DNA from: Deltaproteobacteria bacterium ADurb.Bin207
GTDB taxonomy: Bacteria; Myxococcota_A; Polyangia; Polyangiales; Polyangiaceae
Direction: 5' to 3'
Length of the DNA stretch: 64,000 nucleotides
NCBI GenBank assembly: GCA_002070115.1
Contig: MWCO01000003.1
Coordinates: forward strand, 124,001-188,000
How positions within the stretch are numbered: the stretch's first letter is position 1; each line of letters begins with the position of its first letter. The notes beneath the pieces were generated by a model. It saw only the letters and a list, made by a program, of their open reading frames with translations, was not told the DNA's origin and made no database searches. Made by a program: the position numbers and the translations under genes. Of the stretch, positions 12,757 to 26,625 are shown piece by piece.

Positions 12757-12850
12757 GCATCGAGCGAATGCTCATGATAGGATCGGAGGCTAATTCGATG
12801 CGCTATTGCTGGTGTGGGGTCGTACGCGTATGGTGACGATTCGTTCGTCG
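12757..12850 (+). repeat. Imperfect direct repeat, copy 2
   Basis: Second copy of the repeat at 12556-12648, starting gcatcgagcgaatgctcat and ending gattcgttcgtcg. On the minus strand it includes the last codons and the stop of the M16-like lipoprotein gene. The two copies sit about 201 bases apart between the convergent genes. Confidence 0.65.
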
Positions 12851-15282
12851 GAAACTGTACGCGCCACCCATGTTTTCCACTCTTGGATGCTTGGCATGGG
12901 GGGCAAGCTCGTTTCTTGACGCCAAGTTTGGGCAATGCGGACTCGTGGATCCAAGCGTTGGTGTAACAAATTGGTTTCGACCAACGTGTAGGTTCGTCGA
13001 AGCTCCTGTTCCGAAATATTTCCTTGTCGAAGTCGGGTCATTGCCATTTGGGCTAGTTGCAGAGCCCGATCGACGGCTTCATCGGCTCCGCGAAACGACA
13101 ATACCAAAGCTGTCATGCGACGCTGTCCGGTTGTCCTTGCCTCCGCGCGCAATGAGGTATCGAGGGAACGAAACGACTCGGGCAGCATCCCCTCCGAACC
13201 GGCAAGTATCTCACGGAGCATGGCGAACATCAGACGGTCCGATGGGGAGGGGGAGGGCTGGGCGACTCCGATCCAGGCTTGCGAAGAAGTATCGGAGTGC
13301 AGGGCGATATTGGTGGCATCTGGGCCGGATGACGGTGGTGGACTCGGAGAACAAGTGCGTGGTGACCCGGAACGGTGGATGATCCATCGATCGGTGACCC
13401 GAGCAGCCGATGGCACTTGTTGTGCGTCGGAATTGGCCAGGACGGCCAATCGCAGGGGACCGGAAGCCAGGGCGGCATGTCGCAGGGTTATGCTTTGGAC
13501 ATCGGCTTGAACGATGGTTTTGTATAATCCATAGGGTGCGAGCCAAGCGGGTTGTCGTGGTGACAGGGTTTTGGCGAGCATGCCAAATCCTTCGCCTTGC
13601 GGTCCGTCGGTGTGAAGATAAGCGATCAGGCGATGCCGAGCTTCTTGAATGGCATATTCCGGGGGGGGTGGTCCAAGCATGGCTGAGGCTGCGGCATTCG
13701 CAACGCGTCGTGCCAGCGCGCTTGGGTGTTCCCCAACTTTTGGTGAAGCGTGGGCGAGGATGCCGAGGCCATCTTGGGCGATCCATGGTTCGAGGGTAAC
13801 GTCGTCCTTACCGTTGTGGTGATGGGCTGCAGCGATCGCCGCGAGGGCCGAATAGCCGACATCGGTTCCTGTCTCTGCGGTCGTTCCGCAACGGTTTGCG
13901 AGAAGCAGCCAGAACTCGCCTTGTCCTTCTTCCAGTCGGGATATCGTATCGATATTGGGCTGTTGCCAAGAGGCGGAGAAGGTTGGCAACGAAGATTGGA
14001 AACTGGAAAGGGCCGTAGTGAGCGTGCGGCCTAGTTCGGATTTGTCGCGGATATCCTTGGGCGGAGGGAGTCCAAGAGCGATGGCTACGCGTGACGGGCC
14101 AGCTTGTAGGCGAGCGGCGTGGGACCACCAAGCAGCGATGGAAGCCGCTTGTTGGGGGTTGGAGGTGCGCAACACGATTTCGCCCGCGACCGAAGCGTCC
14201 GCGTAGGCATCTTGCAATTCACCTTGCATCTCGTGAGAAAGCCATGCGGCAACTCGAGCCGCGTCCAGTGTCAAATCCACGTCTTTTAGAGCGGGATCCC
14301 GTTCGACGGACAGAGCGAGGCAGGCTCCTCGGGGGCGGACGGTGGCGCTCGAGCGAGCCAGTCGCCAGGCTGTGGCGGCAGCGAGTCGTTGGGCGAGGGG
14401 GCCTGAAGCCGCGAAGGTGGTTTCCGTGAGCCGGGTGACGGCGAAGGTGTTCGACACGCGGGCTGCGAGGGTCAGTACCGGCGTATCTGTGCGAGATCCT
14501 GTGAGAAAAACAGCTTCCACCGTGTCGGCTTCCGGCCAAGGATCTTCCGAAGGTGTGACTGTTGGCCACGGGGAACCAGCGTTCAATTCCTCGTGAACTG
14601 CTGTGGTAAGAACGGAGGAGCCAACCGTCGCGAAGGCGATGCGTTGTGCGCCATGAAAGGAGGCGCGCCACTGCTCGAGGATTCGCGCACCATCGGGGGT
14701 GGAAGGAACGAGCACGGTTGTGGAGGCGGGAATGGCGATTTCGCCCGTGCATGCGTTGATGGCATCGAGTTCGAGTCTGGATGGCGATGAGCCTCGAAGT
14801 GATTGCAACGCGTTGGCAGCCGCTTTGGTTTCGGGGCTATCGGGTTGGATGGGGCGTTCGAAGGCATTGCGGAGTGCGGCGACCCATGCCCGTGCTTCGT
14901 TTGGGTCTTGCACGAGTGTGCTGATTCGGTAGCCGAGACGATCGGAGTGGACTTCGACGGGACGTCCTTGCGCGTTTTTCAAGCGCTCGGCCACGATGGT
15001 GGCGAGGGCTACGGAGGCTTGACCATCGCCGCCGGTAAGCACGAGAGCTGCGATGGCTCCAGCGGGATCGCCTTGTCGAACGATCGACGTAAATCTCGGT
15101 CTGCCTGGATCGTCGTGAACGGCGATGCGTCCGGTGCTGACATTGCCGAAGGTGGCTTGGGCGGCTTGTTGTTCTGCGGGAGGGCGGGATCGCCACGAGA
15201 CGCATGCGGCGGTGGACAGCACCATCATGAGTCCGGCTGCGATGATGAGTGTCGTGTACGGAGAAAGGGCAGGAAACCTCAT
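12790..15282 (-). CDS. M16-like (inverzincin-fold) lipoprotein, probably non-catalytic
   Basis: An 830-residue protein starting at the ATG at 15282, giving a lipoprotein signal (LMMVLSTAAC, Cys ~27). Two halves resemble M16 peptidase domains; the clearest part is the C-terminal ~150 residues (FAMLREILAGSEGM ... RMTALVLSFRG ... ARMRQG-type helix before QELRRTYTLVETNLL). No HxxEH zinc motif is present, so proteolysis is not expected. M16-fold proteins without zinc occur as partner subunits or scaffolds. It is probably periplasm-facing on a membrane. It is divergent from the methyltransferase at 15374. Family assignment is moderate, from pattern only. Confidence 0.6.
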   Translation of the reverse strand: MRFPALSPYTTLIIAAGLMMVLSTAACVSWRSRPPAEQQAAQATFGNVSTGRIAVHDDPGRPRFTSIVRQGDPAGAIAALVLTGGDGQASVALATIVAERLKNAQGRPVEVHSDRLGYRISTLVQDPNEARAWVAALRNAFERPIQPDSPETKAAANALQSLRGSSPSRLELDAINACTGEIAIPASTTVLVPSTPDGARILEQWRASFHGAQRIAFATVGSSVLTTAVHEELNAGSPWPTVTPSEDPWPEADTVEAVFLTGSRTDTPVLTLAARVSNTFAVTRLTETTFAASGPLAQRLAAATAWRLARSSATVRPRGACLALSVERDPALKDVDLTLDAARVAAWLSHEMQGELQDAYADASVAGEIVLRTSNPQQAASIAAWWSHAARLQAGPSRVAIALGLPPPKDIRDKSELGRTLTTALSSFQSSLPTFSASWQQPNIDTISRLEEGQGEFWLLLANRCGTTAETGTDVGYSALAAIAAAHHHNGKDDVTLEPWIAQDGLGILAHASPKVGEHPSALARRVANAAASAMLGPPPPEYAIQEARHRLIAYLHTDGPQGEGFGMLAKTLSPRQPAWLAPYGLYKTIVQADVQSITLRHAALASGPLRLAVLANSDAQQVPSAARVTDRWIIHRSGSPRTCSPSPPPSSGPDATNIALHSDTSSQAWIGVAQPSPSPSDRLMFAMLREILAGSEGMLPESFRSLDTSLRAEARTTGQRRMTALVLSFRGADEAVDRALQLAQMAMTRLRQGNISEQELRRTYTLVETNLLHQRLDPRVRIAQTWRQETSLPPMPSIQEWKTWVARTVSDERIVTIRVRPHTSNSASN

Positions 15283-15373
15283 GGTGAGCGATGGAAAGGT
15301 CCTACGGTACGAACTGGCGTTATGACAAGGTTTTTCCTGCATTGCGGGGAGGAACGGGGTCGCCGTTGGACAG

Positions 15374-16135
15374 GTGGTTCAGGCGGTTTTCATGGTTGAA
15401 CATGGGGAAGACGGCTATGATCAGCCGCGGTCGAATATGTCGAATACCGATTGTATGGTTGAGCCCGCTCGGCAGGACGTGGAAGCTGTCAACGATGAAC
15501 TGGCGCGGCGTCACCCGATTGATGATTACTACGACCGATCGATTTTTCCTATACGATGGATCGAGAAGCGTCGATTGGCGATCATTCGTTCTTTCGTAGA
15601 TGAGCGTGATGGAATGCGCATTGCGGAGGTGGGCTCTGGGGGTGGGCATGTGCTGCGCATGTTTCGAAGCTCGAAGCTGACGGCCATCGATGTATCGAAT
15701 GTATTTTTGGACACGGCGAGAAAAAACCTTCGCGGTTATGATGTCGAGTTCATCAAGGGCGAAGTCGACAAGCTTCCGGTTCTTCCCACGGGATTCGATC
15801 GTGTGATATGCACGGAAGTGCTCGAGCACACGCTGGATCCTCAGGCAATTTTAGCCACGATCGTACGGATGCTTGCTCCGGGGGGGCGAGCGGTGATCAC
15901 GGTTCCGCATGATCCACTCATCATGAAATTGAAAACGATGGTGCGGCGATCTCCAGCGGGATGGGTTCTTCGAGAGAAAATCAACTGGGGCGGTGACCAC
16001 TTGCATTTGCACCAATGGACTCCATCGAGTTTTCGACAACTGCTTTCCCGTAACTATCACGTGCTCGAGGCTGCCGCCGCGCCATCTGCCGTATTGCCCA
16101 TTCGCCTATGTTATCTATGTGCGCCCAAACGATGA
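15374..16135 (+). CDS. Class I SAM-dependent methyltransferase
   Basis: A 253-residue (or shorter) Methyltransf_11-type enzyme. The SAM-binding motif I is RIAEVGSGGGHVLRMF, motif II has the acidic residue in KLTAIDVSN, and the later block FDRVICTEVLEHTLDP and RMLAPGGRAVITVP matches the family. The start is uncertain: GTG 15374, ATG 15392 or ATG 15437 are all possible and none has a well-placed ribosome-binding site. The substrate is unknown. A radical SAM gene begins 16 bases after the stop, so the two probably act on the same small molecule or macromolecule (inference). Confidence 0.85.
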   Translation: MVQAVFMVEHGEDGYDQPRSNMSNTDCMVEPARQDVEAVNDELARRHPIDDYYDRSIFPIRWIEKRRLAIIRSFVDERDGMRIAEVGSGGGHVLRMFRSSKLTAIDVSNVFLDTARKNLRGYDVEFIKGEVDKLPVLPTGFDRVICTEVLEHTLDPQAILATIVRMLAPGGRAVITVPHDPLIMKLKTMVRRSPAGWVLREKINWGGDHLHLHQWTPSSFRQLLSRNYHVLEAAAAPSAVLPIRLCYLCAPKR

Positions 16136-16151
16136 GAATGAGAGGCGCGTG

Positions 16152-17045
16152 ATGTCGTGGTCTCGAGCCGACGTCAAGGTTGGTTTTGCTTGTAACAATC
16201 GGTGCTTATTCTGCGCCCAGGGGCATAAACGAGAAGGGTGTGCGCACGTTCCGTTCCAGGAACTCGTGGAACGCATGCGACAGGGGCGCGCGGCGAGTCA
16301 TGAACTTGTATTGACGGGAGGGGAGCCGAGCTTGCATCCGGATATCCTTGCGTTGGTTCGGGAAGCCAGGCAGATGGGATACCAACAAGTTCAGCTTCAG
16401 ACCAACGGACGAAGGCTGGCTTATGCCTCGTTTGTGGATGCTTTGATACAAGCCGGGGTGACGGAGATTTCTCCTGCGCTTCATGGTCCGACAGCGGATA
16501 TTCATGATGCGCTGACGCGTGCGCCGGGTAGTTTTCGGCAAACGGTTGCGGGGATTCGTGTCGTACGAAGTCGGGGGCTGCCCATCGTATCCAACAGTGT
16601 CGTGGTTCGGGACAACGTCGAGCATTTGGTGGCGTTGGTGGGGGTGTTGGGAAAGCTTGGAGTCGGACAAGCCCAGCTTGCATTTGTGCATCCCGTGGGC
16701 ACGGCGTACGAGCTATTCGATCGTGTCGTCCCGCGCTTGTCCGACGTGGTGGAACCCATTCGAGCTTGTCGAAAAATCGCAGCTCGATACCGGATGCGAT
16801 TGGTGACGGAGGCGATTCCTTTGTGTTTTTTGCGGGGAATGGAAGAATTGGCGGTCGAAGACACGATCCCCAATACGACCGTGATCGATCTTGATGGTAT
16901 GCCTTTTGATTACAGTATGTGGCGTCCATCGGAAGGGAAACTGCACGGTCCCCCGTGTGATGCGTGCGCTGCGAAAGGCCGTTGCGAAGGGCCTTGGCGG
17001 GAGTATCCGGAACGATTCGGCTGGGAGGAGTTTCGCCCTTTGTGA
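16152..17045 (+). CDS. Radical SAM protein
   Basis: A 297-residue radical SAM enzyme. C14, C18 and C21 form the CX3CX2C motif (CNNRCLFC) that binds the 4Fe-4S cluster and SAM; LTGGEPS is the GGE SAM-binding motif. The C-terminus has four more cysteines (residues ~277-290, CDACAAKGRC in part), possibly a second cluster or zinc site. I chose ATG 16152 because it puts the Cys motif at the usual distance and a GAGAGG lies upstream; the GTG three bases earlier is equally possible. Longer in-frame starts would overlap the methyltransferase. The reaction is unknown. Confidence 0.85.
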   Translation: MSWSRADVKVGFACNNRCLFCAQGHKREGCAHVPFQELVERMRQGRAASHELVLTGGEPSLHPDILALVREARQMGYQQVQLQTNGRRLAYASFVDALIQAGVTEISPALHGPTADIHDALTRAPGSFRQTVAGIRVVRSRGLPIVSNSVVVRDNVEHLVALVGVLGKLGVGQAQLAFVHPVGTAYELFDRVVPRLSDVVEPIRACRKIAARYRMRLVTEAIPLCFLRGMEELAVEDTIPNTTVIDLDGMPFDYSMWRPSEGKLHGPPCDACAAKGRCEGPWREYPERFGWEEFRPL

Positions 17046-17422: not shown

Positions 17423-20095
17423 ATGAGTCGTAAACAGCCAATAAGTGAGCCGCACAAAATCAAGACGGTTCGGAGAATTGCGTTTCCGTCGATCGAGGAG
17501 CGAAAAAGGAATCTGGCCTCCGCCGCGTTCAACGTATGGCGACTGACGCCCTCACAGGTTACGTTCGACATGTGTTCGGCGGGGACGAGTGCGTTGAGCC
17601 AGGAACAACTCGCGGGGCAACTCATTGGCGATGAGGCTTATGCGGGAGCGAGGAACTTCGAGTCGTTGCAATTGGCGGTTCGAGATGTTTTTGGGCACTC
17701 GTACGTATGCCCGACGCACAACAATCTTGGCAGTGTGAAGTTGGTGGTTGCCACCATGGTGCCGTCGGGAAAAACGATTCCAAGCAATGCGCGAACGCGG
17801 GCGGATGTACTCGAGCCTCGGGGAGTTCAGGTTCCGGACATTCGAGATCGCGACGAGAAGGTGTTTACGGGCAATGTCGATCTCAAGAAACTCGAGCAAC
17901 TGATCGAAAAGGGCAATGTGGCCTTGGTGGGAATGCAGGCCTTTGCCGATGGCCAGCATCCTTTCAGTCTGGAGAACCTGCGCGCGGTGCATGCGCTTTG
18001 CAGTCGTCATGGACTTCGGCTTGTGCTCGACGGTTCTCGCGTGGTGGAAAACGCATGGTATATCCAGCGTCATGAGGTGGGACAGGCGGATCTGAGTATT
18101 GCGGATATCGTCAAGCGGATCGCGAAGACGGCGAGCATTTTTCAGATCGATGGGGCGCAAGATGCGAAATGCAATACCGGTGGGTTGCTCGCTACCGACA
18201 ACCCCGATGATTATGAAAAGGTGATGAATGAAGTCGTCGTGTACGAAGGACTTCATACCTATGGAGGGATGGCGGGGCGGACGATGGAGGTGTTTGCACG
18301 AGGTCTTCGTGAGATGTGTGATGAAGACGAAGTGCATTGGGTGATGCATCAGACCGAACGATTCACCGAGATGCTTCGTTCGGAGGGGATTCCTCTGGAG
18401 CGGGGCTGCGACGGTGCCTATTTGCGCGCGGATCAATTCTTGCCGCATATCCATGAGCATCAGGAAGATGCGTTGGCAGCAGCGTTGTACTTGATGAGCG
18501 GTGTGCGTGCGGTAGCCGCGGGGCGTGTTGGACGGGACAAGCTGCTTCCCGTGCAGATTCCGCGCTTGGCGATGACCGGCGAGCATCTCGATCAGGTGGT
18601 TGCCGCTATCGTTAGCTTGTATCGTCAACGCGAAAAAGTGGCGCCTCTCGAGCCGCTATCCGTGGGAACCTGGCGCGATCAAATGCGTTATCGTTCGGTA
18701 TTCGCGGACCTGACTCCCTACGAATTCGACACGTTCCCCTATCTCATCCACACGGTGGAACACGTGGGAACGCTTACCCGGGAAGAGCGTCTGAAGGCGA
18801 TCCGAGCGGCTGGATATAACACGTTTTTGCTTCGTTCCGCCGACGTTGCCATCGACTTGCTCACCGACTCGGGCACGTCTGCGATGAGCACCGATCAGTG
18901 GGCAGCGTATGATGCGGCTCATGCGTCATCCGCCAATAGTTCGGAATTCGAGCATTTTGTGGAGGTGTTGCAGGATATCTATGGGTATCAGCAAATCATC
19001 CCGACGCATCAAGGACGAGCTGCCGAGCATATCCTTTCGCAGATCATGATCAAACCCGGCCAACTCGTTCCGGGTAATATGTATTTTACGACGACCAAAG
19101 AGCATCAAGAGCTTGCGGGTGGGCACTTCATCGATGTGATTGTCGATGAGGCTCATGTTCCGCAGAGCGACTGCTTGTGGAAAGGAAACATCGATCTTGG
19201 CAAGATCGACAAAGCGGTGAAGGAGCGGGGAGCGGAGGGGATCGCTTATATTTCCTTCGAACTTGCGGTGAACATGGCTGGCGGGCAACCCGTGAGCATG
19301 GACAATATGAAAGAGGTCTATGCGTATTGCAGCGCCAGAAAGATTCCCGTTTTCTATGACGCCACGCGCGCTGTCGAGAACGCATACATGATCCAGCAGC
19401 GAGATCCACGATACCGCACGACAAAAATCCGCGACATCCTTCGAGAAATGATGCTGTATGGGGATGGATGCACCGTCAGCGGGAAGAAGGATTTCCTCAT
19501 CAACATCGGTGGCATCTTGGCGTTCCGCGATGACAAGGAGCTTGCGGCTCGCGCGCAGGAGCTGTTGCGAGTGTATGAGGGTAGCGTGGCGAGTGGAGGT
19601 CTTGCCACGGCAGATCTGGCTGTCATCGCGCAGGGAGCGCAGGAAATGCTCGACGATCGCTATATCCGATCGCGCGTTCGACAAACGCAATTGCTTGGAT
19701 CGATGCTGATGGAAGCGGGGGTGCCGATCGTTACGCCTCCTGGAAGCCACGCTATCTTCCTTGATGCGAAGCGTTTCCTTCCGCATGTTCCGCAAGAGGA
19801 GTATCCAGCGCAGCGACTCGCGGCCGAAATCTACGTCGAGACTGGCGTTCGAGTCATGGAGCGCGGCAATGTCTCGAGCGGACGCGATGAAAACGGAAAG
19901 AATTATTGCCCAGCTCTCGAACTCGTTCGCTTGACGATTTCGCGGCGTGTGTACACCAACGATCACATGCGAGCGGTCGCCGATGGAATCATCCGTCTAT
20001 ACCAGCGACGCAATGAGATCAAAGGCTTGCGTTTCGTGTATGAGCCCGCCCATCTTCGCTTTTTCCAAGGCCGATTCGAACCCATCGAAGGATAA
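17423..20095 (+). CDS. Tandem-fused tyrosine phenol-lyase-like protein with degenerate N-terminal half
   Basis: An 890-residue protein made of two complete beta-eliminating lyase (tyrosine phenol-lyase/tryptophanase) modules, ~10-435 and ~436-890; normal family members are ~460 residues. The C-half keeps the PLP lysine K689 (SGKKD), phosphate loop THQGR 528-532, N617, D646, R649, R836 and the TPL-type residues T556 (MYFTTT) and R814 (MERG), suggesting a tyrosine/phenol-type substrate rather than tryptophan. It has lost the GDEAYAG tyrosine. The N-half has lost the lysine (GAQDA), the QGR loop (THNNLG) and both arginines but retains GDEAYAG (Y73) and the YEGxxxYGGMAGR loop (275-286). The start at 17423 is set by ggagaggg eight bases upstream and by family alignment. 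Confidence 0.88.
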   Translation: MSRKQPISEPHKIKTVRRIAFPSIEERKRNLASAAFNVWRLTPSQVTFDMCSAGTSALSQEQLAGQLIGDEAYAGARNFESLQLAVRDVFGHSYVCPTHNNLGSVKLVVATMVPSGKTIPSNARTRADVLEPRGVQVPDIRDRDEKVFTGNVDLKKLEQLIEKGNVALVGMQAFADGQHPFSLENLRAVHALCSRHGLRLVLDGSRVVENAWYIQRHEVGQADLSIADIVKRIAKTASIFQIDGAQDAKCNTGGLLATDNPDDYEKVMNEVVVYEGLHTYGGMAGRTMEVFARGLREMCDEDEVHWVMHQTERFTEMLRSEGIPLERGCDGAYLRADQFLPHIHEHQEDALAAALYLMSGVRAVAAGRVGRDKLLPVQIPRLAMTGEHLDQVVAAIVSLYRQREKVAPLEPLSVGTWRDQMRYRSVFADLTPYEFDTFPYLIHTVEHVGTLTREERLKAIRAAGYNTFLLRSADVAIDLLTDSGTSAMSTDQWAAYDAAHASSANSSEFEHFVEVLQDIYGYQQIIPTHQGRAAEHILSQIMIKPGQLVPGNMYFTTTKEHQELAGGHFIDVIVDEAHVPQSDCLWKGNIDLGKIDKAVKERGAEGIAYISFELAVNMAGGQPVSMDNMKEVYAYCSARKIPVFYDATRAVENAYMIQQRDPRYRTTKIRDILREMMLYGDGCTVSGKKDFLINIGGILAFRDDKELAARAQELLRVYEGSVASGGLATADLAVIAQGAQEMLDDRYIRSRVRQTQLLGSMLMEAGVPIVTPPGSHAIFLDAKRFLPHVPQEEYPAQRLAAEIYVETGVRVMERGNVSSGRDENGKNYCPALELVRLTISRRVYTNDHMRAVADGIIRLYQRRNEIKGLRFVYEPAHLRFFQGRFEPIEG

Positions 20096-20145: not shown

Positions 20146-22116
20146 TCAGTGGGGGGCCTCCCTGTTGCAATTGGCGCTGCAACCATCCCCTGAAACGCGG
20201 TTGCCATCATCACACGTTTCGCCCTCTTCCGTCTGCATGATCCCGTCCCCACAACGAGGCCCTAAGATACATCCGGGAGCACACTCCCCATATCCTCCAG
20301 CGTTGATTCCATCGTCGCATTGCTCGCCGAACAAACTATCCACGACCCCATCCCCACAATATCCTCCCAACTTACATCCCGGCGCGCATCCGCCATAAAC
20401 ACTCAAATTCAAACCGTCATCGCACTCCTCTCCTTCGGACGTTTGCACGATTCCATCTCCGCAATGAGGTGCACGAAGCTTGCAGCCGGGCATACAGCTT
20501 CCGTAAGAACCATCGTTGACGCCGTCATCACAGGCTTCGTACTTGGTGACGATCCCATCGCCACAAATCCAATCGCACTTGCTTCGCACGTTGTCGAAGT
20601 TGGATAACGTGAGACGATAATTGGATTGGGTGGTATGCCGTTCCGCTTGAAACACAGCGATTTCGTATACTTGTCCGAGTGTGAGCCCAAAGGCTGCCGC
20701 GGTCGTGGCGTTCAATTCAATCCCGCCGGGTAGAGCGCCATGAACCCCGCCCAAATCCACTGCCAACTTTCCGGCCAAAAATACCCAGACATCGTCATCG
20801 CCCGTAAACAGCAGTATCTCGTTGCCTTTGTATTCAAACCAATACCGAACCTCGCTCGTGAAGTGGAAGTTATGGGCTCGTCCTTCATTGCCGAATAGCT
20901 GACCATCCAACGGGAAAAAACTGCTGTTGTCGTATTGGTATTCGCCCGTGGCCAGACGTGTCAGTTCCAGCGTTTGCAATGCGGTAGCGTTCACGCCTGG
21001 CACGTCGCGATACCATTGGTTGAACGTGGCCTCGCTCGTCACGGTGAGACTCGAAGAGGTGCCATGCGCGTACTCGGGTTTTCGATCGGCCCCAAGCAGA
21101 GGTTTGACGATACCCGACTCGGTCCCAAGGTATTTTTCCATGTCCGGATGGGTGTCATGGAAATCCCGAAGAACGATGGGAAGCGTCATGGTTGGACCGC
21201 CGCCAACCACGATGGGCGCGCAAGTGAAACCGGGTTCGACTGTGCATGTCGCGGAACAACCATCGCCGGATTGATTGTTGCCGTCATCGCATTGCTCGTT
21301 GGAATCTCCAGGCAAGATGATCCCATCGCCACAACGTGATTTACAGGCACCCCCGCTACAATCAGGCTCTATCTCGCAAAATGGCGTGCAGCCGTCGCCC
21401 ATGTCGAAGTTGCCGTCGTCACACGCTTCCGATCCTTCGCGGATACCATCGTTGCATACGGTTGGAATGCAAGGTTTCCCTGGTTCCTCACACTTGAATC
21501 CAGGTTCCAGCAAGCAATTCTCATCACAACCATCACCCGATTCCGGTACCGCATTACCGTCTTCACACTGCTCGTTTCCAGCAATGATCCCATCGCCGCA
21601 CATCGCGGCTTCGCACGCTACGGCCACCACGGGGCATACCCACCCCGGCTCTACCGTGCAGGTTTCATCACAACCGTCACCAGGCTCATCGTTGCCATCA
21701 TCGCAAGTTTCCAATCCCGTAATCTTCCCGTCGCCACATACCACGGTCGAAACGCAAGCCTCGCCTGGAACAGGACAAGCAAAACCGTTTTCGACGGCCT
21801 TACAATCCCCTGAGCAACCATCTCCGGAATCCGTATTTCCGTCGTCGCATGTCTCTCCCACATCCAGCCGTCCGTCACCACAAGCGGGTTCTGGCGGTTC
21901 CGAACACCCATCTTCCGTGCAATCGGAGTCCGATTCTCGGTCTGGAATGACCAGGAGGTCATAGGGCGCGTCTTCGGGCGTGGTATCCGTCGTGGAGGCG
22001 TCATCAACACCCGAATCGGATTGGGAACCGGTGCCTTCTTTGTCGGCAGTGCATCCCAAGGACCAGACGGTTGAAACGCCAAGAATCGTGAAAAACATGA
22101 CGGCGCTGCGCATCAT
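20146..22116 (-). CDS. Fibro-slime domain lipoprotein with DUF4215 Cys-rich repeats
   Basis: A 656-residue secreted protein with a lipoprotein signal (TVWSLGC, Cys 22) and an Asp/Ser/Thr-rich linker. Six or so DUF4215 'myxobacterial Cys-rich' repeats (CGDG..E.CDDGN...GDGC...C) precede a fibro-slime/PA14-like domain at ~300-510 (FHFTSEVRYWFEYKG, LLFTGDDDVWVFLAGKLAVD, VYEIAVFQAERH), and four more repeats close the protein. PA14-type domains usually bind carbohydrate; a cell-surface or matrix role is inferred. It is divergent from the IscA-type gene. A weak inverted repeat (CTGACA/TGTCAG) lies past the stop. Confidence 0.88.
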   Translation of the reverse strand: MMRSAVMFFTILGVSTVWSLGCTADKEGTGSQSDSGVDDASTTDTTPEDAPYDLLVIPDRESDSDCTEDGCSEPPEPACGDGRLDVGETCDDGNTDSGDGCSGDCKAVENGFACPVPGEACVSTVVCGDGKITGLETCDDGNDEPGDGCDETCTVEPGWVCPVVAVACEAAMCGDGIIAGNEQCEDGNAVPESGDGCDENCLLEPGFKCEEPGKPCIPTVCNDGIREGSEACDDGNFDMGDGCTPFCEIEPDCSGGACKSRCGDGIILPGDSNEQCDDGNNQSGDGCSATCTVEPGFTCAPIVVGGGPTMTLPIVLRDFHDTHPDMEKYLGTESGIVKPLLGADRKPEYAHGTSSSLTVTSEATFNQWYRDVPGVNATALQTLELTRLATGEYQYDNSSFFPLDGQLFGNEGRAHNFHFTSEVRYWFEYKGNEILLFTGDDDVWVFLAGKLAVDLGGVHGALPGGIELNATTAAAFGLTLGQVYEIAVFQAERHTTQSNYRLTLSNFDNVRSKCDWICGDGIVTKYEACDDGVNDGSYGSCMPGCKLRAPHCGDGIVQTSEGEECDDGLNLSVYGGCAPGCKLGGYCGDGVVDSLFGEQCDDGINAGGYGECAPGCILGPRCGDGIMQTEEGETCDDGNRVSGDGCSANCNREAPH

Positions 22117-23220: not shown

Positions 23221-26200
23221 GTGACGAGCGCACCTCAGATTTCCACGGAGACTCGATCCAGTCCGCCTAGGGCGCGCTCTTCTTCGGCATCATCCTATCC
23301 ATTATTCAATCCCACCCGTATTGCTCGTTCTCTTTCGGTCGAACCTGGTGAAGAGCGGCGAACCGCGTTGCTATTCGTGTTGTTGATCTTGGCCTCCATC
23401 GTTTTCGACATGGGGCGAGCAACTCGAGATGCGCTTTTTTTGACGCGCTATCCCGTGACGTGGATTGCCCATATGTGGATTGCGTACGGAGTGGTGTCTT
23501 CCGTGGCAGCCGTGGGGTACGGGTGGATTTCCTCGCGCGTTTCTCGTGCGCGCCTCGCCATCATTTTCGCCATCTTCTCCGCTGTGTCCTATGTCGCGTT
23601 CCGCGTGGCGATTGGTGCGGACTTCGGTTGGGCCATCGTTGTTTTTTATGTCTGGGCCGAGGTCATTGCGAATCTGTTCATCCTTCAAGCCTGGGCGATT
23701 ACCAACGACCTGCACGACCCTCGAAGTGGCCGAAGGCTATTTGGTCTCATTGGCGCGGGACGAATCGTGGGGATGCTTTTTAGTGGTTTTCTTACGGGCA
23801 GTATCGTTCGCGCTATTGGGACGCCCAATCTCATCGTGGTTGTCGCCGCGATCATGATTGTTTTCGCAGGTCTTGTGCGATTCATTGGAACACGTTTCCC
23901 ACTGGCAAGACCGAAGCAGCAGCCGGGAGCGGGACGGGAGCCGACAGCTTCGTTACGACGGCACAAAAAATACACCTTCTTTCTGTCGATCATGCTCCTC
24001 ACGGCGTTCATCGCGCTGACGGTCGGCGATTATCAGTTCAAGGCGATCGTCAAGTTCTCATATCCCGAACGGGATGATGTGGCCGAGTACATGGCTCGAT
24101 TCTACGCTTTGATGGGAACGCTCGCTCTATTTGTCCAACTCTTCGTTGCACCGCGAGTGCTCAAGTATCTTGGTGTGATTCCTGCGTTATTTGCCATGCC
24201 TGTCGCCTTTCTCGGAAGCACCGCGGCCCTTCTGTTTTCTCCGGTTCTTCCCATAGCGACGATGATGAAGCTGAGTGACAACGGATTGCAGTACACGATC
24301 CACGAGGCCACGATGCAGCTTCTGTACTTCGCGTATCCAGCCTCGCTTCGAACGCGTGTTCGCGCAATTTTGGATGCGATGATCAAACCTTTGGGCTGTT
24401 CTTTGGGGGGCGTCGTGCTGGTTTTCTTGTCGCCCGTGCCCTTCGCGGGAGAGTCATTGACGAGCTTGGCTGCGCGCGTGGCTTCCGTGGGCTTCGTGTC
24501 CTTGACGCTTGGCATCGCCTGGGTTGGGGTTCTTCCCCTGGTGAGGTGGGCGTATGTTGATGCTCTTCATCGAGCTTTGGTGCGTAGGCAGTCGGATTTG
24601 CGAGAGGAAGTGGAGCTTCAACTCGATGCCTCGATGGAAAAAGTGCTTCGAACTACCGTGCATTCGGGCACTCCCGTGCAAGTTACGTTCGCTTTCGAAG
24701 TGCTGGCATTGAGTTCGCCCAAGGCTGCGCGCGAGGAGTTTCCACGACTCATTGCTCATGAAAGCCCAATCGTCCGTGCATTTGGGGTTGAACAAATTGC
24801 TCGTCTGGACCCTGAACGAGCAGCCGATTTGGCACGGGCACAGCTCGCGGATCCGGATCCAGACGTTCGCTGTGCGGCGATCGCGACATTGGGTTCCGTG
24901 CGGCAGGAAGATGCGGTCGATGAGATCGAGCACTTTGCGTATGACGATGCGCATCCACGACTTCGCAACGAAGCCATTGTGACGCTCATTTCTCATGGGG
25001 GTTTGCCAGGGGTGCTGGCCGGGGGCGCGAGATTGCAACAATTGATTCATAGCCGTGACGAAAACGACCGAATCGAGGCGGCTGTCGTTGTCGGCAATGT
25101 GGGACAAAAGGGGCTTGCTCGAACCCTCAAACCACTGTTGAAAGACGAATCGCTGTTGGTTCGGAGGACCGCCGCAACGGCCGCTCGCGGCTGCGCTAGC
25201 ACGGGGTTGCTCGATGCGATGCTCGAGGCCATGTCGGAACGCTCCCTCGTCAAGCCGCTCATTGCGGCCATCATTGCTGTCGGGCCGGAGGCGATACCGG
25301 AATTGGCCAATAGCCTTCGAAACGAAGATACGCCGCGTCTCGTGCGACTCAGTATCCCGCGTGTTCTTCATGGAATCGGAACGATGGAGGCTCTCGAAGT
25401 GCTTCGCGGCTGTTTTGGCACAGACGATGAGGGGGTGCGTCAGAAATGTCTCGCGAGCGCCTCTCGGTTGCGTGAAGAACTCCAGGCGCCCGCTCTTCCC
25501 CCACAAACCCTGAAACCCTGGATCCAACGAGAGATCGAAGACCACGTTACCGCGCGGGATGGATGGCTTTCTGTTCGTCCTTGGCTTACTCGTCCGCTGT
25601 TGGACCGACAGCTCCAACTCGAACTACGCGGACACATCGTTCGCATCATGAGACTTTGTGAACAGGCATACCCACGCGAACAAGTGGCGGCTGCTCGAAA
25701 TGGCATTTTTTCTCGTGATGCAACCCGAAGAGCCAACGCATTGGAAGTGCTCGACAACGTACTGGACCGAGAACATCGTCTTGCGATCGTGGACATCGTT
25801 GGCAGATTCGCGACGGAGTACCCTTTCGTAGACGACCGTGAGCCCGTTACCACCCCCGTTCCCGAACGTGTCAAGCATTGGTTTGCGCAGCGTGTTGCTC
25901 TGCCCGGCTTCTATCGACGCTCCGTACTTTTCGAAGCGGTCGGTCATAATCGCGTTTGTGATCTTGCCGAGGCGGCCCTCGCCCATACTCGTCGGTCCAA
26001 CCCGTTTCTAAGAGAAAACGCGCTCATCGCGCTTGCGGCGTGCCGTCCTGTCGGATGGCAGGACCGTATGGAGCGTGCGTTGAACGATGAAGATGCCGTG
26101 GTTAGAGCGTACGCTACTTACGTGATGCAAACAGGTCGTTCGGGCCTGGATCCGGGGGACGAGATGTATACGACTGTAGAAAAAATATTGTATTTACAAG

Positions 26201-26625
26201 GGGTTTCGCTGTTTTCGAACGTGCCGGGCAACGAGTTGGTGCCCCTGGCTATGAGGGCTCGAGTCATTCGACTGGCACCCGGTGATGTGGTCTTCCACGA
26301 GGGCGATCCTGGAGACTCCTTGTTCATCGTGTTTCACGGTCAGATCGCCTTGCATGCGGGAGGGCGAGAGCTGGCCGTGTTGGGGGAAGGAGAAGTATTG
26401 GGTGAACTTGCGATGCTCGACGAAGCGCCGCGTACGGTGACGGCTACCGCGGTGGGTGATGCGGATGTGTTGCAGGTATCGACGGAGGACTTTCGCGTGG
26501 CCGTGCAAGATACGTCGGAGTTTGCCAATCGCGTCATCTCCGTGCTCGCAAAACGTCTTCGCGATGTGATGGGGAGTGGCAACGTCGTTCGGACGGATGA
26601 GGAAGGACGAAAGACCGCGCTTTAG
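23221..26625 (+). CDS. NTT-type nucleotide transporter fused to HEAT repeats and a cNMP-binding domain
   Basis: A 1134-residue fusion. Residues ~40-460 are about 11-12 membrane helices of the Npt1/Ntt (ATP:ADP antiporter, MFS-like) family, starting RRTALLFVLLILASIVFDMGRATRDALFL. Residues ~465-960 are alpha-helical HEAT repeats (for example PDPDVRCAAIATLGSV and LLVRRTAATAARG). Residues ~1000-1120 form a CAP-family cyclic-nucleotide-binding fold (GDVVFHEGDPGDSLFIVFHGQ is its core, in part; then LGEGEVLGELAMLDEAPRTVTATA). Similar fusions occur in bacteria outside the parasitic chlamydiae. The transported substrate is unknown. The start is GTG at 23221. Confidence 0.87.
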   Translation: MTSAPQISTETRSSPPRARSSSASSYPLFNPTRIARSLSVEPGEERRTALLFVLLILASIVFDMGRATRDALFLTRYPVTWIAHMWIAYGVVSSVAAVGYGWISSRVSRARLAIIFAIFSAVSYVAFRVAIGADFGWAIVVFYVWAEVIANLFILQAWAITNDLHDPRSGRRLFGLIGAGRIVGMLFSGFLTGSIVRAIGTPNLIVVVAAIMIVFAGLVRFIGTRFPLARPKQQPGAGREPTASLRRHKKYTFFLSIMLLTAFIALTVGDYQFKAIVKFSYPERDDVAEYMARFYALMGTLALFVQLFVAPRVLKYLGVIPALFAMPVAFLGSTAALLFSPVLPIATMMKLSDNGLQYTIHEATMQLLYFAYPASLRTRVRAILDAMIKPLGCSLGGVVLVFLSPVPFAGESLTSLAARVASVGFVSLTLGIAWVGVLPLVRWAYVDALHRALVRRQSDLREEVELQLDASMEKVLRTTVHSGTPVQVTFAFEVLALSSPKAAREEFPRLIAHESPIVRAFGVEQIARLDPERAADLARAQLADPDPDVRCAAIATLGSVRQEDAVDEIEHFAYDDAHPRLRNEAIVTLISHGGLPGVLAGGARLQQLIHSRDENDRIEAAVVVGNVGQKGLARTLKPLLKDESLLVRRTAATAARGCASTGLLDAMLEAMSERSLVKPLIAAIIAVGPEAIPELANSLRNEDTPRLVRLSIPRVLHGIGTMEALEVLRGCFGTDDEGVRQKCLASASRLREELQAPALPPQTLKPWIQREIEDHVTARDGWLSVRPWLTRPLLDRQLQLELRGHIVRIMRLCEQAYPREQVAAARNGIFSRDATRRANALEVLDNVLDREHRLAIVDIVGRFATEYPFVDDREPVTTPVPERVKHWFAQRVALPGFYRRSVLFEAVGHNRVCDLAEAALAHTRRSNPFLRENALIALAACRPVGWQDRMERALNDEDAVVRAYATYVMQTGRSGLDPGDEMYTTVEKILYLQGVSLFSNVPGNELVPLAMRARVIRLAPGDVVFHEGDPGDSLFIVFHGQIALHAGGRELAVLGEGEVLGELAMLDEAPRTVTATAVGDADVLQVSTEDFRVAVQDTSEFANRVISVLAKRLRDVMGSGNVVRTDEEGRKTAL

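Follow-up and report, generated by a model that had tools for sequence, protein, structure and literature searches.

The gene at positions 17423–20095 of the + strand of the window—the whole 64,000-nucleotide stretch of DNA that was analysed—encodes 890 residues plus stop in an open frame, and this reading frame is a tandem of two tyrosine phenol-lyase (TPL) domains, each holding the part of a TPL active site that the other has lost. Probably, a TPL gene was duplicated and fused and the labour was then split between the copies: the C-half would be catalytic and the N-half its obligatory partner, with the active sites formed in trans. This best explanation builds on four observations—the open reading frame, the reciprocal loss of residues, the TPL fold of both halves, and the specificity residues—from which we infer an activity, a substrate, an assembly, and the trans geometry.

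A ribosome-binding-like GGAGAGGG lies immediately upstream of the ATG. The chain is covered by two stretches of the Pfam family Beta_elim_lyase, and the NCBIfam model tyr_phenol_ly (TIGR02618) scores 892 bits against a cut-off of 720.7, with the best stretch at residues 439–886; this score covers both stretches, and the share of the C-half is not separated in it. The N-half comprises residues about 1–429 (17423–18709, +) and is a TPL domain that is predicted to be catalytically dead and to supply the partner-side residues. It is followed by a short interdomain linker of residues about 430–438 (18710–18736, +), which has a pLDDT of about 94 and a constant anchor-to-anchor length in 33/34 homologues. 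The C-half, residues about 439–890 (18737–20092, +), is the predicted catalytic TPL domain for pyridoxal phosphate (PLP) and substrate. All features of the gene lie on this + strand, and alignment columns are numbered as in Citrobacter freundii TPL (CfTPL, 1tpl). Residues were tabulated for 33 N-halves and 32 C-halves and, for comparison, for the 52 single-domain TPLs that the same searches had yielded.

The C-half is a close relative of known TPLs: residues 437–888 share about 54% identity with Citrobacter/Erwinia TPL, phmmer matches them to TPL 9j3u (E 1.7e-160), and the model superposes on CfTPL at 1.1 Å with a Z of 60.7. The 17 own-subunit catalytic and substrate residues that were scored are all invariant in the 52 single-domain TPLs, and 17/17 are retained. 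The own-subunit residues named in the sequence-only reading of this DNA—K689, Q530-G531-R532, N617, D646, R649, R814, R836, and T556—are located where it had placed them, as were those of the N-half; K256 of CfTPL is present too, as K688. The QGR phosphate loop (residues 530–532; 19010–19018) and K688–K689 (CfTPL K256–K257; 19484–19489), which includes the PLP Schiff-base lysine, are found in 32/32 C-halves together with N185, D214, and R217. R814 (19862–19864) corresponds to the phenol-specificity arginine R381 of CfTPL in the residue tables and in the specificity table of PMC5805759. R836 (19928–19930) corresponds to R404, which contacts the substrate carboxylate in TPL (PMC9262865) and is kept in 31/32 C-halves. 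The sole exception is locus L037 of genome G150, whose C-half is interrupted after residue ~752; this fused gene matches in frame only to about that residue, apparently because of a frameshift. The partner-side segments of the C-half are reduced to remnants. In the former GDEAYAG segment (residues 499–505; 18917–18937), E69 has become A or P and Y71 has become A, P, S, T, or C; in the former partner loop (residues 718–730; 19574–19612), Y291 is replaced by D or S, G296 by A or T, and R297 by A. The substitutions in the window—A501 for E69, S503 for Y71, S721 for M288, S724 for Y291, T729 for G296, and A730 for R297—bear out the earlier statement that the C-half has lost the Tyr71 segment and the YEGxxxYGGxAGR loop, and E69, Y71, and Y291 are present in 0/32 C-halves.

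The N-half is more divergent. Predicted alone, it aligns with TPL over 423 residues at 2.0 Å (Z 46.8, 32% identity), and its sequence identity is about 36% with single-domain TPLs and 28% with the C-half. Only 2/17 own-subunit residues are left, D214 and R217 (D203 and R206 of the chain), both invariant across all N-halves. The QGR phosphate loop is replaced by N100-N101-L102 (17720–17728), with N100 in 33/33 and L102 in 32/33 N-halves. SGKKD is replaced by DGAQD (residues 243–247; 18149–18163), in which Q246 takes the place of the PLP lysine; this column holds Q, H, or R and never K in all fused rows. The substitutions in the window are Q98 to N100, R100 to L102, K256 to A245, K257 to Q246, R381 to A366, and R404 to P376, confirming that the lysine, the QGR loop, and both arginines have gone, and the F123–T124 region is deleted in the alignment. 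What the N-half keeps is the partner side: GDEAYAG (residues 69–75; 17627–17647), the acid/phosphate segment with E71 (CfTPL E69) and Y73 (CfTPL Y71), and the loop YEGLHTYGGMAGR (residues 274–286; 18242–18280) with L277 (CfTPL M288) and Y280 (CfTPL Y291). E69, Y71, and Y291, as well as the Leu at the M288 position, are held by the N-half in 33/33 rows. In TPL, E69 is a potassium (monovalent-cation) ligand that comes from the partner subunit.

This division recurs in every homologue. The reading made from the sequence alone had taken complementary loss as the mark of an obligate pseudo-dimer, and co-occurrence of the two losses was followed through 34 fused rows: the lysine in the N-half or Tyr71 in the C-half occurs in 0/34, the former column being Q, H, or R and the latter P, A, S, T, or C, whereas both residue sets are complete in the 52 single-domain TPLs. 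Among 163 TPL-invariant columns, the N-half retains 16/17 in the partner segments and 41/146 elsewhere (Fisher P 1.3e-7), and the C-half retains 5/17 and 125/146, respectively (P 2.3e-6), so that its losses amount to 12/17 in the partner segments and 21/146 elsewhere; the P values are descriptive because the segments (67–73 and 283–300) were chosen from the literature and the hint of the earlier reading and because the rows are phylogenetically related. The partner-subunit origin that the earlier reading gave for Tyr71 is supported for the equivalents of Tyr71 and Tyr291: in tryptophanase, Tyr74 and Tyr307 reach across to bond the PLP phosphate of the adjacent subunit (PMC2770544), and the proton donor is Tyr72, contributed by the second chain of the catalytic dimer (PMC11301627). 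The evidence strongly supports reciprocal loss and a composite site, and the protein probably cannot work without combining its two unlike halves.

The AlphaFold model of the 890-residue chain has a mean pLDDT of 91.5 and a pTM of 0.90, so the relative placing of the halves is confidently predicted. Their geometry was read from the DSSP strands, pLDDT, and pTM of this single-chain model, in which a second chain cannot appear. The fused model contains an N-half arm strand at residues 11–18 (17453–17476), whose predicted partner is the arm of the C-half, and a short strand at 58–59, both of which are absent from the N-half predicted alone, where the pLDDT of residues 11–20 drops from 94 to 56. 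The matching strands of the C-half are 440–447 (18740–18763) and 488–489. With tryptophanase numbering taken from a structure alignment (2v0y residue 7 = model 436), the arm strands map to residues 12–17 (440–447 in the C-half) and 58–60 of E. coli tryptophanase, which build the four-strand sheet of the non-catalytic interface—one of two kinds of dimer interface in that tetramer (PMC2770544). Because the strands fall on these interface residues and strand 11–18 vanishes without the C-half, the N–C pairing within one modelled chain appears to be of the tetramer-type, non-catalytic (A–C) kind. Halves that form an A–C pair in one chain need a second chain for the catalytic A–B pair, which makes a dimer of fused chains, with two trans sites, the more likely working unit. 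The arm residues are compatible with this: where single-domain TPLs have the pair K11/E14, all N-halves carry K14/R17 and all C-halves H443/E446, a split to be expected if the arms of unlike halves pair with each other.

In the proposed mechanism, the C-half would bind PLP on K689, with the QGR loop at the phosphate and D646 and R649 under the PLP ring, and would hold the substrate carboxylate by R836 and the phenol ring by T556, M812, R814, and F880. The N-half, as a dead TPL fold, would act as the obligatory partner subunit and insert into a C-half site Y73 (proton donor or phosphate contact), Y280 (phosphate), and L277. E71 would be inserted along with them as a monovalent-cation ligand, the role of its equivalent in TPL. 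The halves of one chain would be joined via the non-catalytic TPL/tryptophanase interface, and two chains would dimerise such that each catalytic pair consists of an N-half and a C-half from different chains. Of the four pockets in such a homodimer, two would be working composite sites and two would be dead. The reaction would be the cleavage of L-tyrosine into phenol, pyruvate, and ammonia, or the same reaction run backwards.

The same composite site could be formed inside one chain, as a true pseudo-dimer with one site per chain, which is how the sequence-only reading had seen it. Reciprocal loss demands nothing beyond an N–C pairing, cis or trans, and in the intrachain topology the heterotypic pair of N arm and C arm could likewise form between chains. 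However, the model seems to use the non-catalytic interface, with strand 11–18 depending on the C-half, and the partner loops of the N-half have a modest pLDDT that does not gain from the fusion (70 fused versus 74 alone for residues 71–80; 67 versus 68 for residues 271–280), which would be expected of loops whose binding partner is missing from the model. The composite site of the earlier reading stands with its 34 exceptionless rows, while its location within a single chain has become doubtful, and the intrachain arrangement is a secondary, rather unlikely possibility. A different role for the N-half is suggested by its former pocket (17720–18560), where N100, D176, S205, D243, D330, G331, and Q378 are fixed anew in all 33 homologues through the changes Q98 to N, N185 to D, S254 to D, T216 to S, H343 to D, A344 to G, and T406 to Q. 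Seven of the nine re-fixed columns lie in or near the old pocket (P 0.001, a descriptive value since the pocket list was author-drawn). These residues may have a structural role, or they may be the sign of a binding site put to new use. A mainly structural or regulatory pseudoenzyme, next to a C-half that is active with another C-half or with a residual loop, would account for this new invariant set, but every C-half row lacks E69, Y71, and Y291, and exactly these are kept in the N-half. A pair of C-halves would moreover be crippled, because the Y74F variant of tryptophanase has negligible activity (PMC2770544); such a division of roles is quite improbable. An obligate trans-composite enzyme whose dead N-half pocket (N100, D176, D203, S205, R206, D243, D330, and Q378) is re-used as a second, possibly regulatory, ligand site is conceivable, if on the unlikely side, and would be a TPL with a catalytic and a sensor pocket in one chain.

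A composite site would also be compatible with a natural substrate other than tyrosine, i.e. another phenol-bearing amino acid or another β-elimination, and the lack of a conserved gene neighbourhood pointing to a pathway leaves room for it. TPL and tryptophanase are discriminated by the positions Thr124, Met288, Met379, Arg381, and Phe448 (PMC5805759). The C-half has T556, M812, R814, and F880 for T124, M379, R381, and F448, and not the tryptophanase residues D137, V394/I396, and H463, in whose place Thr, Met, Arg, and Phe are found. The M288 position, which comes from the N-half, is Leu, as in 48/52 single-domain TPLs, and the YEGLHTYGG loop of the N-half is shared with most single-domain TPLs of these groups. 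The five TPL/TIL positions of PMC5805759 hence either are TPL-like or match the single-domain TPLs of these groups, and these organisms keep a separate tryptophanase-type gene—in the genome of the fusion this is L002, with residues D..I..H—both of which speak against a different substrate and make it unlikely. Given the TPL-type specificity residues of the C-half, the likely substrate, as judged from sequence, is tyrosine or a closely related phenol. That the gene is a pseudogene, an assembly artefact, or a chance fusion is suggested by nothing more than its unusual architecture. The open 890-residue frame, the constant linker length, and about 30 near-complete fused homologues at 65–74% identity from independent assemblies, some of them on long or single-chromosome contigs, make this exceedingly improbable.

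The fused homologues number about 35, show the same reciprocal loss throughout, and come from Myxococcota, Gemmatimonadota, Acidobacteriota, Lysobacterales, and others, phylum names being those in the record titles of metagenome bins. They share their 65–74% identity with the window protein along the chain. The fusion was found in four genomes of the source genome's family, on 27 further contigs—from Gemmatimonadota, Acidobacteriota, Lysobacterales, Deltaproteobacteria/Myxococcota, and one Planctomycetia MAG (L057, ending at a contig end)—and in three more homologues of a Gemmatimonadota sample. A stand-alone N-half gene, which would be a two-gene intermediate, was not seen among the homologues, and matches to the N-half only were contig ends. 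In trees, each half forms one clade (support 100), and in a tree without the divergent L027 both group among TPLs and away from tryptophanases (support 99); the tree was rebuilt in this way because the N-half had joined L027 through long branches. L027 (G043) itself is a very divergent single-domain TPL relative that keeps the PLP lysine and carries K256 to R, R217 to L, and the altered loop YEGFLTYGGMSSK. An origin of the N-half from tryptophanase was rejected, as it is 36% identical to TPLs versus 32% to tryptophanases and as both halves nest with TPLs. The sequences fit a TPL duplication, followed by fusion and then complementary loss. Single-domain TPL is absent from the 27 genomes reached via the fused loci (in 26 the fusion spans both halves; in L057/G170 the N-half is cut at a contig end) and from five other fused genomes, a weak indication with so few genomes. 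As a statistical argument, the idea that fused and single TPL exclude each other was discarded since the expected overlap is small and since the scan that gave the three homologues of the Gemmatimonadota sample scored no more than two candidates per genome, so that it was left out of this comparison. A tryptophanase-like gene occurs in nearly all fusion genomes. Single-domain TPL and tryptophanase-type genes stand directly head to tail on G273:C1, G200:C2, G292:C211, G545:C87, and G563:C22; these contigs belong to several Gemmatimonadota and to a single genome from the Lysobacterales sample. A conserved operon or pathway was likewise rejected: close relatives apart, the 31 fused loci whose neighbourhoods were compared have nothing in common besides the fusion.

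Known TPLs (Citrobacter freundii, Erwinia herbicola; TIGR02618, EC 4.1.99.2) have the fold common to both halves of the fusion and consist of identical subunits of ~456 residues with a complete set each, whereas the fusion combines two divergent copies that are each incomplete. Tryptophanase also shares the fold and receives its Tyr74/Tyr307 equivalents from the neighbouring subunit (PMC2770544), but the specificity residues of the C-half are of the TPL type. The claim that no example has been described holds within this lyase family, where no fused case was found among 5.39 million open papers; it does not hold for fold-type-I PLP enzymes at large. The P-protein of glycine decarboxylase (GLDC/GcvP) is one chain of two fold-type-I PLP halves, the N-half of which lacks the lysine and has a Gln in its place (PMC7259800), like Q246 of the fusion; it catalyses a different reaction, belongs to a different family, and its own fusion arose separately. 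Among the structural matches listed for the model, which were filled by TPL and tryptophanase chains, no P-protein chain appeared. In human serine palmitoyltransferase (SPT), the lysine-less LCB1 pairs with LCB2, and a single shared site to which the partner without PLP lysine gives residues, as is proposed for the fusion, is a working hypothesis (PMC3794620); unlike the fusion, SPT has two separate genes, belongs to another PLP family, and is membrane-bound. Beta_elim_lyase domains of NRPS/PKS systems (LnmJ-type; thiocysteine lyase 9cen) stand in the same Pfam family within a larger chain (PMC3870968) but are single domains with no reciprocal-loss tandem. The fusion shows the split-labour pattern of GLDC and LCB1/LCB2, with one half lysine-less and carrying the partner residues and the other the reverse. 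The principle is already known; what appears to be new is to find it among β-eliminating lyases and with these residues. The fusion would give a clean natural instance in which a well-studied enzyme was duplicated and fused and then underwent reciprocal loss. It can be compared across about 35 examples and with single-domain relatives that are intact, and would allow a test of how, and why, an obligate hetero-pair evolves from a homodimer. TPL engineering for L-DOPA synthesis could use it as a scaffold whose catalytic residues can be altered independently of the partner residues. The automatic annotation "tyrosine phenol-lyase" may conceal the fused architecture.

Just upstream of the fusion gene, a methyltransferase ORF is followed by a radical SAM protein in overlapping frames (15374–17045, +), a pair that is not conserved near other fused genes. 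Preceding it is an 850-residue ORF (12790–15342, −) with a lipoprotein-like signal at its start and no Pfam match. The other side of the fusion gene is adjoined by a 656-residue protein (20146–22116, −) with seven Cys-rich DUF4215 repeats and a PA14 domain; together with the very large genomes of its relatives, this protein points to Myxococcota as the probable source of the genome. A chain of 1134 residues (23221–26625, +) features a part resembling MFS and TLC ATP-ADP transporters, HEAT repeats, and a C-terminal cyclic-nucleotide-binding domain.
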